From contig NC_092661.1 of NCBI RefSeq assembly GCF_032118995.1, forward strand, positions 5,024,501 to 5,088,500: a DNA stretch of 64,000 nucleotides, given 5' to 3'. This document shows positions 34,326 through 40,300 of the stretch, in pieces (positions within the stretch are counted from its first letter, which is position 1; each line of letters opens with the position of its first letter). The notes beneath the pieces were generated by a model. That model had not been told where the DNA came from, did no database searches, and saw only the letters and a list, made by a program, of their open reading frames with translations. The stretch is from Asterias amurensis. Its lineage: Eukaryota; Echinodermata; Asteroidea; Forcipulatida; Asteriidae. The position numbers and the translations under genes are program-made.

Positions 34326-37300
34326 TCATTTTCCACTGGACGCCTCTTCGCTCCCTTGACCACTGTCTGACTGGATACACTGATTCTCCTGATGAGTGTC
34401 GCCGGCAGACTCGGAGTTTGACGGAGATGCTGCGGAGTTACTGGTAGGATCCTGCACTGCTGCTGTCTCCTGTTGACTTGATGATACGTTCGTATCTTGT
34501 GCCTTGGAGTTGGTGACATCAGACGATACTCCTTCGGTTTCGTTTGCTGTGAAAAAAATGCACATCATTATTACAGGCATGATGTGAGTGGAACTGTTAA
34601 AAAGTATACAAACAAACAAATTATTTGTGTATTAAATATAAAAGCTAAAACTCAATTCTAGTGAGTGTTTTTAATGTTAACATTTCTTCGTAGATATAAT
34701 TTAAAACAATCATTTGATTTCAGACAAAAAAAATAATTTTTGTTAGACACGCTTTTTCCAATCCGGTGCGCCCAAGACTTTTTATATTATTGCTCTAGCT
34801 TTTTTCTGGTGTGAAACAAGCGATCAATAAATAAGAATCCCCCGGGATAAAAAAAAAAATAAATAAATAAAATGTTCATCTTGTCCATGACACCCACCTG
34901 CGACTGTCCTTTCTTTGTCTAGTAGAGCGTTGCGTTCACCCTGTAATGCACGACACAGCTTCTCTAAACGAACTACTTTACTACGACTCTCTGTAGCCTC
35001 CCGCTCATGGTGCGTTTTCTGAAAAAATAACAGAACAACCTTTTATCTTGAATTCATCACAAAAAAAGGGATGACATGAGAGATTCTTAAGACGAATGAC
35101 GTGTTAATTCGCAAACATTTTCATGAGTTGCCCACAACTGAAAATCAAAATCGTACAATCCCTTTTCTTTAACGTATTATCGTGTTATTTCCATTTCTAG
35201 ACCTACTATCAGTACTATTATTATTTATACTGCCTAGGTTTAATGCAAAATAGTATACAAATATTGACTGCTTCAAGTGGCTTAGTAAAACTTGTCACTC
35301 GAGGTGATCCCCGGAGCAGACTATCTTCCCTCAGCGAAACTATACCACGAGACAAAGCAGTCAATATTTGTTTTATAACACCCCGTCCTTTGATTCTATC
35401 TGTATACTTTAATACAAATTAATTCACACAACACCTTTATTCTTCATTCAACACTGCGTTCATGTGATCCACTATCTCCAACGTTGTGTTGCATACAGAA
35501 CAGTACTGTTGAACAATTCTTTCGACGTATTTTATGCTGCTTTTAGTGTTCTTTGAATCTGCTGAGTCTATAAAATCTCGTAATTCATCTTCAGTAAGTA
35601 AAACAAATCGCGGACGGGGCTCATTGTCCTCCATTTTCCTGGTAGAATCGTCAAAAAACTTCATGTACGTCGCGCACAATCAATCGTCAAACAAGAACTG
35701 TAAAATCTTCTGTTGAAACGCCGAGTTTTGACAAAATAAGAGGGTACCAGACTACTGCTGTTGCGTTCGTTCTCTGGATGCTGATAATTACCCTCGCCTC
35801 CAGCTCGGGTAATTATCGCATCCAGACTGCAACCGGTATTAAACAGAGTGTTTAAAACCAGCCAAGCACATATTTATTCCCTAAATAATAATAATAGTAA
35901 TAATGAAGACATTTGTAAAGGGCCTTACTAATGCCAAAGCCTCTAAGCTCATCAAGAGAACAATAAAATATACAATGAGTGAAAGATACAGTTTGAGTAG
36001 TAAGCAGATTACAAATAAGCAGCTTCAAAAAAGTTTTAAACAGAGACTTAAAACAGTGTATAGAACAACTGGTGAATATGCACAGGAAGACTATGGGTAT
36101 GTTCAGACAGCGTACTAAGTTAGACCCGAACCGGTTTAACTTCTACGAGCAGCAGGGGGTGGTCATAAAAATAAAAACCCCTTGCGTTCAGACAGCACTG
36201 AGTTAAACCCAATACGGTGTATCTTTGGTTTTAAGAGGTCAAAGCAAACGCGACCCTGTTACTCTAACATCCTGTTTATTGGCCTGTTCATTGGTCACCG
36301 TGTGTTTACATAATGATTACGGAGGTCAATGGGTCGTCTGTTGTGAGTTAAACCGGATGTAGTCTTTTTTATTCTGTCCACACAGTGTTAAAAGATAAAC
36401 CCAAAGCGGTCTAAAGATAAACCCCCTCCCTGGACGGTTTATCTTTTGTGGGTTGAACTCCATTCGGACTAACTTTAGAACCGTTCCGACACACAGAGTT
36501 GAACTCGATCGGGTTGAACCATGACTTAAACCAACTTTAGTACTGTGTCTGAACGACCTCTATTCCAAAGAAATGGTGTGGGGTAAGAAAATGATCTGTG
36601 GCCATAAAAAAATGGAAAAAGCTCTTGTGGTTGAAAGCAAAAGTATTTTTTAAAAGGATTTGTTTTTTTCCCCCACTGTGCACATTATATGATAGTATCA
36701 CTCATCCTTACCTGTTCAGCCATGATAAGAAGCGACTTTTTGGTGTTTTCCCATCATGCACACCATATGCTAGTCTCAGTCTCAAGTCTGATTATGTATT
36801 TTCTTTACCTGTTCAGCCATGATAAGGAGTGACTTGTTGGTGTTTTCCCAACGTACATGCCACATGTTAGTCTCGCTCTCAAGCCTGATCATGTATTTTC
36901 CTTACCTGTTCAGCCAGGATAAGGAGTGACTTGTTGGTGTTTTCCCATCGCACACGCCATATGCTAGTCTCACACTCAAGCCTGATTATGTATCTTCCTT
37001 ACCTGTTCAGCCAGGATAAGGAGTGACTTGTTGGTGTTTTCCCATCGTGCACACCATATGCTAGTCTCACTCTCAAGCCTGATTATGTATCTTCCTTACC
37101 TGTTCAGCCAGGATAAGGAGTGACTTGTTGGTGTTTTCCCATCATACACGCCACATGCTAGTCTCACTCTCAAGCCTTATTATGTATTTTCCTTACCTGT
37201 TCAGCCATGATAAGGAGTGACTTGTAGGTGTTTTCCCATCGCACACGCCATATGCTAGTCTCACACTCAAGCCTGATTATGTATCTTCCTTACCTGTTCA

Positions 37301-40300
37301 GCCATGATAAGGAGTGACTTGTTGGTGTTTTCCCATCATACACGCCATATGCTAGTCTCACACTCAAGCCTGATTTTATATTTTACTTACCTGTTCAGCC
37401 ATGTTAAGGAGTGACTTGTTGGTGTTTTCCCATCGTACACGCCACATGTTAGTCTCGCTCTCAAGCTTCTTTATCTTCTTTGTCATCTGAAATAAATTAA
37501 AATTAATACAAGAATAAGCACTTATTAAGCGCCAGTATCGGTCATGGTGCATTATTAGATCACTGGACACGTTTTATAATTGTCAAAGACCAATATTCTC
37601 ACTAGCTGTATCCCCATTTTTCTTCAAATACGCGCTAATCCTCCAATCAGATTTGCAGAACGGAGTGATGATAAAAACCTATATTGCACGGCTAATATCA
37701 CTACCTGCGTCTTGTGTGTTCTATGTCAGGCGCCAAGTTTGCTTGAAGATAAATATGTTATCACACGCGCGCTCGTGGAAATACAGAAAATATAGCGTCG
37801 GCCTCGTTGGATATGGGACGCAGAAGCGCTATATTTTTCCATATTCCACTTGTTGTGTGATAACTTATAATGTGCATAAAATAACAAATCTGTGAAAACG
37901 TTGACTCAATTGATCATCGAAACTTAAGGCATGGAGTCTTTTAATATTTGAGTGAGAGGTTGCAAGAGAATAATGAAAGTGAAATACACCCCTGTTGCAC
38001 AAATTTGTGTGCTTTCAATGCCCAATGAAAGGCTTCAGGCCTGAAGTCGTTTAATATTTGAGTGAGAAGTTGCAAGAGAATAATGAAAGTGAAATACACC
38101 CCTGTTGCACAAATTTGTGTGCTTTCAATGCCCAATGAAAGGCTTCAGGCCTGAGGTCGTTTAATATTTGATTGAGAATTTACCTCTCTCTCAAAAATCT
38201 ACGTTACTTCAGAGGGAGCCATTTCTCACAATGTTTTATACTATTAACAGCTCTCCATTGCTCGTTACCAAGTTAGTTTTTATGCAAACAATTATTTTTT
38301 AGTAATCACCAATAGTGTCCAGTGCATTTAAACAGTAAAAACAATTAAACAGAATAACAAGTACTGAAAAGATGAGTTTCAAGTGACGATTTGAAAGTTG
38401 ACAAGAAATTCAAGATGGCGCAATTGTTGAGGAAGATATCAGAGATATGAGCTAAATGAGCTAAATGCAGTTATTGCCGGAAGGATTTTTTTTAAACTGT
38501 AGGGCAAGTTTGGAAGAAGGACGATGAATGTTTCCACTTAGTGGTTTATCTTCGATTTTAAGAGCCCTAACTTGCCATTTGGGATATTCTGAATAGTTTA
38601 TCTTAATGATTGTTGCAAATTTATTCTGAACTACTTATTTAATAATAGGTGACAGAAAATACAGAGAACTACTTACTTTATCCATTTCTTGCTTGAATGT
38701 TTGAAACACCTCATTACTCTTTGTCAGTGTGCTCTGAAATTCCTCAAACTTCTCTGTGTATACTGTTAGCTATTAAGAAAAAACAACAACAACACACCCT
38801 GATTCATAAATACCTCAGACAGTTTCGCTATTCCTATTGGTGGAGAGCGCGTCACGTGGGTGTGTATAAACCTTTGTTTATGACCGGTAAAAAGTGTTAA
38901 TTCATGGGCGTGACACGCGACCTTGCACCTGTTCTTATAACTGTATAAGACAGTTTCTTCATTCCTATTGGTCGAGAGCAACAGCTGAAACAGTTGTGCC
39001 ACATCACGCGATACACGCACAGCATTCCCTTATAAGGAGTTGTTTACCCGAGGGCGGCGGAGGGCTTTACCATTTCATAGCTGGAGGGGTGTTGTGTTGA
39101 AAGAAATCATTTAACAATTATATTTTTTGCATTTATTTTACTTTTTGACCCAAAAGTGATGATGTTTTTGTTGACCGAAAAGGTATTTACGAATGGGATT
39201 CAAAGTGTGTTTAATCGGTTTTCAACTAGTGGTTTAAACCTGCCAAGGCCTGGTTCTTTATAATTTACCTCCCCCTCGTTGGGATTGACCACTAGTTGAA
39301 AACCTCTTCACCACACATTGATTCCCTTATTATGAGTAACTTTGAGGTGACCTCTTCAAGTCAGGCATGTGAGTGGGATGTGAAAAAACAACCCCATCCA
39401 CAGCATATTAAAGGGTCTAGGTACTTTTTTCTAACACAAAACACAATGTCCACAGATTTAAATTTAAGCTGCACAGTTTGAAGATAATGATAGTAGAAAG
39501 CTTCCCTTGAAGTGCTGTAGTTATTAAGAAATGAGTAAAACAAGGTCACAAAAATGTTGTTTGTCTCAAAATGTAATAACCAGTTATGCTATGATTATGG
39601 TATAATACCATAACCAATAACTGGTTATATACGTTTTTACTTGCTAAAATAATGTTCGTCTCACTGAGACAAAAAATAATTTTGTGACTTGTTTTACTAA
39701 TTTCTTAAAAGCTACAGCACCTCAGTAAGTAAGTAATATTTAAAGGGAAGCTTTCTACTATCAATATCTTCAAACCGTGTTAATCTGTGGACATTTTTAA
39801 AAAGCACTCGAATCATTTTTTATCAAAGTCTTATTAGCGCATTTCACTATAACAGTCTCAATGCGCTTTACATTAGTGCCCTGGGGTGGATTTGACAAAG
39901 AGTTAGGACCTGTCCTAACTTAGGAATAGTCCTAGGAGATACTAAAAACGTATGGCTAATCCTAACTCGAGTTAAGACTAGTTTTAACTCTTTGTGAAAT
40001 CCACCCCTGGTCATTGGGCCAATATCATTCCTGTAATCTTTCCAAAGGCCCCCCAAAGGTTTTTTCATACACAATGTCAACCTCTACCCTCGGAGGTAAC
40101 CATTTATGAAGAGAAGCAATTATAGTAAAGTATCTTGCTCACCCACACTCCGATGACTTAACCACAAGAACTTGAACTTGATGCTCTAAACCACTCGGCC
40201 ATGACACGCTTTTTCTATTCCAAAACGCCCGGTCTCAAGGCAGAGTTTCCCTTTAACCAGTGGATTACAGAGTTTTTAAGTTTTGAACTGAAACAGTAAC

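Follow-up and report, generated by a model that had tools for sequence, protein, structure and literature searches.

The taxilin gene of the starfish Asterias amurensis carries a tandem array directly behind its eighth exon, in which the end of that exon and its splice donor are repeated seven more times inside the following intron. The gene lies in a window of 64,000 nucleotides (NCBI RefSeq assembly GCF_032118995.1, contig NC_092661.1, positions 5,024,501 to 5,088,500 of the forward strand), and coordinates given below are those of the window unless another contig is named. The structure of the array, the gene that carries it, the reading frames of its copies, the lack of detectable constraint and the recurrence of similar arrays beside other exons in the genome were all observed directly. 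Most probably the array is a minisatellite of the type called mirage in amphioxus and would be inert intron DNA, with rare mis-splicing events lost to nonsense-mediated mRNA decay (NMD).

A ten-exon model on the minus strand (34326..45399, 444 aa), placed by splice consensus and open reading frame, yields a protein that matches the Pfam family Taxilin with E = 3.8e-85, which bears out the identification made in a preliminary description of this DNA. When the whole genome was searched (491.5 Mb, 23 contigs), family matches above the Pfam cut-off were confined to the locus in the window, and no second taxilin gene was found at that level; weak matches on contigs C8, C9 and C16 all fall below it. 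Exon 8 corresponds to positions 243-274 of the Taxilin profile (33.5 bits), and its donor agrees with the consensus at 9/9 positions. A comparison of the exon with solved structures gave no usable match (best E 2.4). In the model, skipping of exon 8 preserves the reading frame.

The array itself is very regular. Eight CAGGTAA sites follow each other at exactly 97 nt in 7/7 intervals, just as first described, and Tandem Repeats Finder delimits a repeat at 36705-37466 (period 97, 7.9 copies, 91% matches, 0% indels, score 1244). The repeat unit consists of the last 76 nt of exon 8 and the first 21 nt of the intron, and seven extra copies of it lie in intron 8. The first 20 nt of exon 8 and its real acceptor are absent from the copies, and the statement that whole exon-intron units had been copied does not hold, since the unit takes up only 76 of the 96 exon nt together with the 21 intron nt. 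The array had also been called perfect, which is true of its spacing but not of its sequence, with 2 to 13 differences between any two copies over the 76 exonic sites and 3 to 12 between the real exon and its copies. The motif CAG|GTAA is retained in 8/8 donors and thus, as claimed, in all seven extra copies. An AG indeed stands before each copy (7/7), while the exact sequence given for it, AATCAG|GCTTGAG, is found in only four of the seven; the other three read AATAAG|GCTTGAG, GATCAG|GCTTGAG and AATCAG|ACTTGAG. Four copies (2, 4, 5 and 6) are open over 25 codons, in agreement with the earlier count, and copies 1, 3 and 7 have TGA where the real exon has CGA. With the 779-base array as query, one genomic place was matched among the best candidates scored. 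Intron 7 of the gene holds a second tandem array (37923-38178, period 110, 2.3 copies), at a distance of about 0.4 kb upstream from exon 8. The features of the gene and of the array are collected in Table 1, together with the loci elsewhere in the genome that are discussed further below.

Table 1. Taxilin exons, array copies and exon-associated donor arrays at other loci (positions in the window unless a contig is given).
Feature	Position	Strand	Details
Taxilin exons 1-5	45173-45399, 44664-44767, 43498-43668, 42342-42470, 41378-41497	minus	start codon in 45173-45399
Taxilin exons 6-10	40305-40379, 38677-38769, 37391-37486, 34898-35018, 34326-34546	minus	stop codon in 34326-34546
Authentic exon 8	37391..37486	minus	96 nt, phase 0 at both ends, acceptor TTTATTTCAG, donor CAG|GTAAGT
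Intron 8	35019..37390	minus	2372 nt, array at its 5' end
Exon 9	34898..35018	minus	authentic downstream splice partner of exon 8 in the gene model
Copy 1 of exon 8 end, 76 nt	37294..37369	minus	internal TGA, donor CAG|GTAAGG
Copy 2	37197..37272	minus	25 codons open, donor CAG|GTAAGG
Copy 3	37100..37175	minus	internal TGA, AATAAG in front, donor CAG|GTAAGG
Copy 4	37003..37078	minus	25 codons open, donor CAG|GTAAGG
Copy 5	36906..36981	minus	25 codons open, donor CAG|GTAAGG
Copy 6	36809..36884	minus	25 codons open, nearest to real exon (3/76 differences), donor CAG|GTAAAG (7/9)
Copy 7	36712..36787	minus	internal TGA, most diverged (12/76 from real exon), donor CAG|GTAAGG, followed by unique intron sequence
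L029, EZH1/2			E 6.8e-7
L030, RME-8	G000:C7:18124700-18134500		E 6.1e-7
L035, cullin-3			E 3.4e-20
L037			same exon peptide as L038, 97 kb apart
L038, receptor tyrosine phosphatase			E 2.3e-4; Pfam 0.059, under its cut-off
L040, Rod C-terminal region			E 1.4e-5; solved KNTC1 only E 0.94
L045, ITPR			E 2.6e-7; no Pfam match
L047, SRCR			E 3e-25
L027, VWA exon			E 4.6e-15; 39-nt unit open in frame, may be coding

The copies combine mostly strong donors with acceptors that are poor in pyrimidines. Six copy donors agree with the consensus at 8/9 positions and one at 7/9. Upstream of the acceptor, pyrimidines occupy 11/16 positions at exon 8 and 10-13/16 at the eight other taxilin acceptors examined, compared with 4/16 at each of the seven copy acceptors. 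Read from their own AG in the frame of the gene, the copies begin GCT TGA or ACT TGA and thus meet a stop at the second codon in 7/7 cases. The preliminary description had predicted that inclusion of a copy would shift the frame; the frame is lost indeed, although this understates the effect. Because the sole AG acceptor sets each copy in the wrong frame, the open reading of four copies carries no weight.

We modelled the possible uses of the array. Of 36 acceptor-donor pairs tried at the position of exon 8, the authentic one alone reads through to the end; the remaining 35 all meet a stop, 191 nt or more ahead of the last junction. The same limit applies to 28/28 options in which a copy or a run of copies is added after exon 8 (7 of these 28 would require an intron of 21 nt), and an extension of exon 8 into the intron runs into a stop after four codons. 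Since all 63 modelled copy uses end early, as expected of a poison exon, none of them contributes protein sequence and any use would be a poison event. By the 50-nt rule for NMD, transcripts that use a copy should be removed.

A probable history of the array can be outlined. Tandem duplication would first have affected a stretch that runs from the last part of exon 8 into the beginning of intron 8, and slippage or unequal exchange would then have expanded it to seven extra copies. The complete first exon would keep its own acceptor and the best-matching donor, so that the copies come to lie within the intron and would normally be removed with it. They would be without a role and could vary free of coding constraint. 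Accidental use of a copy donor or acceptor would lead to an early stop and hence to NMD, which may make the array tolerable.

The variation among the copies agrees with this picture. The 17 codon variants across the eight 76-nt segments comprise 5 synonymous changes, 11 replacements and 1 stop, against 3.9, 12.0 and 1.1 expected from random placement with an equal number of transitions; coding constraint on the copies was thus not detected among these 17 variants, in a test of low power. Selection on the donors was not detected either: with 20 of the 97 columns variable, seven donor columns would all be invariant by chance with p = 0.19. Against the Taxilin profile, the real exon scores 21.7 bits over the 25 residues concerned and the open copies 13.7-19.2 bits. 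The terminal copy is the most diverged (mean 0.133 vs 0.066-0.100 in the others). Of the 36 informative site pairs, 10 fail the four-gamete test, as would result from exchange between copies; recurrent CpG change could also produce this pattern.

Some observations weigh against an inert array. The constraint test is weak, with 17 variants only. The two longest stretches without variation measure 15 nt each, and CAG|GTAA lies in one of them; the 6/7 copy donors that match the consensus at 8/9 positions could bind U1. The array is judged inert from its genome sequence.

The preliminary description had offered three roles for the array, namely donor decoys, a poison-exon bank or inert DNA. Its anatomy was right (a taxilin exon, an amplified donor and the next intron), and of the three roles inert DNA is now the best supported. 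As a poison-exon bank or a set of donor decoys, the array would be used by a regulated share of transcripts, whose degradation tunes taxilin output. This fits with the poisonous outcome of 63/63 modelled copy uses and with the strong donors in 6/7 copies, but the copy acceptors are weak by pyrimidine count and constraint was found on neither donors nor codons, so that we consider such a role unlikely. U1 snRNP is known to act in exon definition and in the suppression of premature polyadenylation. The copy donors could in principle recruit it without being cut, and the array would then be a U1-binding tract that aids the definition of exon 8 or suppresses premature polyadenylation in the intron. 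In its favour are the seven extra donors immediately behind exon 8, which agree with the consensus at 7-8 of 9 positions; the lack of detectable constraint speaks against it, and we regard it as very unlikely.

It might also be asked whether the number or order of the copies is an assembly artefact. Tandem arrays misassemble easily, and the cited parts of PMC3087553/PMC3902484 report one aberrantly assembled mirage in amphioxus. However, the published assembly was built from HiFi reads with a mean length of 12.5 kb at 22.7x, according to the cited part of PMC10625585. Because such reads far exceed the 0.78-kb array, and because its copies differ from one another, an artefact is highly improbable. 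Finally, alternative coding exons that replace exon 8 as protein variants stand next to no chance, even though 4/7 copies show an open frame over 25 codons. In every copy the first 20 nt of the exon are missing, and the AG at hand leads in 7/7 to a TGA as second codon (a contradiction by frame unless there is an unseen acceptor); if exon 8 is extended instead, a stop comes after four codons. We therefore retain inert intron DNA as the preferred interpretation.

Arrays of this type are not restricted to taxilin. Three occurrences of the donor word CAGGTAAG at a spacing of 68-98 nt gave 51 hits genome-wide, which we grouped by hand from the hit lists, as for all loci reported here, into 14 loci including taxilin. 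The wider spacing of 99-129 nt yielded 59 hits, which fall into 15 loci and add 11 to the list. We examined 17 of these loci, the 14 with the shorter spacing and 3 of the 11 new ones, the latter not being a random draw. A recognisable coding exon forms the first copy in 9/17, a number that includes taxilin and two neighbouring paralogues (Table 1). Exon identity at the other loci comes from peptide matches. The two paralogues, L037 and L038, are not independent, since they lie 97 kb apart and share the same exon peptide. L027 is not counted among the nine, since its unit has an open frame and is possibly coding sequence. Four further loci (L032, L033, L034 and L039) appear exon-like by eye, with no Pfam match above the cut-off and, for L039, no match among solved structures; L028, L031 and L036 are not exon-like.

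The array behind the RME-8 exon has 14 donors that share the same nine letters, so that donor strength alone cannot decide the choice between them. Each of its units also contains the pyrimidine-rich CTCTCTCTCCAG, which makes the RME-8 copies look more spliceable than those of taxilin. A unit similar to CAAGGTAGACATTCACTGTACAAACCTAC is common to many arrays (on C1, C2, C4, C7, C8, C10, C14, C16 and C18) and represents a dispersed tandem-repeat family.

Does the donor word itself give rise to arrays? The control words CAAGGTAG and CAGTAAGG, which have the same dinucleotides as CAGGTAAG, yielded 11 loci (45 hits) and 10 loci (65 hits) at 68-98 nt, and CAGGTGAG yielded 8 loci (17 hits). With genome totals of 13,951 for CAGGTAAG, 8,636 for CAAGGTAG and 7,649 for CAGTAAGG, this amounts to 1.00, 1.27 and 1.31 loci per 1000 sites. 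The rate of the donor word is not above that of the dinucleotide-matched words, and the donor word probably does not seed arrays. Reversed controls at the same spacing gave 8 hits for CAGGTAAG, 10 for CAAGGTAG, 60 for CAGTAAGG and 19 for CAGGTGAG; the reversed control of CAGGTAAG alone would suggest an excess, but the comparison with the dinucleotide-matched words does not. At 99-129 nt, CAAGGTAG gave 91 hits, a number that is ungrouped and inflated by one dispersed family.

A preference of arrays for real exon edges is likewise not apparent from the nine loci. Approximately 42% of the CAGGTAAG sites are in excess of the matched background, and these are candidate real donors; against this expectation, 9/17 gives p = 0.24. 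If L027, L032, L033, L034 and L039 are counted as exons too, the proportion rises to 14/17 (p = 0.0007). The plain reading is that this genome forms minisatellites freely and that those falling on donors are tolerated.

A more far-reaching proposal would be that donor arrays at exon edges form a permanent class throughout the starfish genome, in which coding exons of core genes are followed directly by as many as 14 nearly identical donors that act as U1-binding tracts and as a copy-number-dependent NMD leak. We think this quite unlikely. If it were true, the unstable repeat length would translate into heritable, perhaps somatic, variation in gene output. Whatever their effect, mirages are natural tests of how the spliceosome chooses a donor among near-identical neighbours.

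Several other features of the window and the genome deserve mention. A 45-bp tandem array at 9596-11487 (~42 copies, 93% matches) is open on both strands, as is usual for a unit divisible by three; its open reading frames (ORFs) of 193 and 472 aa on the plus strand and 299 aa on the minus strand are candidate coding sequences only. A plus-strand ORF of 268 aa at 18201-19007 contains C2H2 zinc-finger-like repeats and presumably resembles MTF-1. A tRNA-Ser (anticodon aga) is predicted at 6989-7061 on the plus strand. The 25-bp direct repeat pair GGACACTATTAGTAATTGTCAAAG, present at 40757-40806 and 55157-55206, is probably the end of a dispersed element. Outside the window, two COX1 copies are found on C5 (L025, G000:C5:657374-661714, and L026, 673794-678134), 16,420 bases apart, a distance close to the length of the mitochondrial contig C23 (16,427 bases), which holds COX1. 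Over 4,341 bases each, the two show no difference from one another, and their identity to C23 is 97.2%. Perhaps the complete mitochondrial DNA was inserted in tandem into the nuclear genome, unless the pair is an assembly effect. The COX1 of C23 reads GFGNW and RMNNMSFW when translated with the echinoderm code, whereas table 5 puts lysines in place of the asparagines, and asparagine is conserved at these sites.

How does the taxilin array compare with known systems? Tandemly duplicated mutually exclusive exons consist of several tandem copies of one exon, and the array resembles them in holding several tandem copies of exon 8 sequence. We reject this assignment, as the copies are partial (76/96 nt), are without a proper acceptor and have TGA at codon 2 in 7/7. 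Intron gain by tandem duplication of an AG|GT segment, of which potato reportedly provides a case, also starts from a duplication like the one seen here. Unlike in that model, the taxilin spacers measure 21 nt and no new intron is implied; spacers of this size are too short for single splicing. In addition, 28/28 combinations of exon 8 with copies give early stops and never keep the frame, and we discard intron gain at this locus. As a general model, intron gain by AG|GT duplication is cited in PMC3087553, in the part referred to here. The cited part of PMC2812944 describes repeats at exon-intron boundaries in human segmental duplications, which may form new introns or change exons, with transcript support. 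The taxilin array shares with them a minisatellite-type expansion that touches exon-intron boundaries, but differs from the changed exons and new introns described there in that its repeat lies within an existing intron.

The closest parallel is found in the mirages of amphioxus. According to the cited parts of PMC3087553 and PMC3902484, these minisatellites span an exon-intron boundary in Adh3, the globins BflGb6 and BflGb9, PGBD5 and TnC; regular splicing is reportedly undisturbed, haplotypes differ in length and the units at the edge escape homogenisation. Searches of the open-licence PMC literature found no report of a starfish mirage among the matches listed. By its structure in the genome sequence, the taxilin array looks like a minisatellite of this type. 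It is a tandem duplication that overlaps the exon-intron boundary, with the authentic exon at one end and AG/GT splice signals within its units (CAG|GTAA in 8/8, AG before 7/7 copies). Its unit of 97 nt is within the 10-160 bp given for amphioxus in the same parts, and its edge unit, the most diverged, may be the least homogenised. It differs from the mirages described there in that its host is an echinoderm, not a cephalochordate, and in that it sits on the donor side, while amphioxus shows both sides. Should mirages indeed recur in an echinoderm, they would count as a more widespread trait of deuterostome genomes rich in minisatellites.

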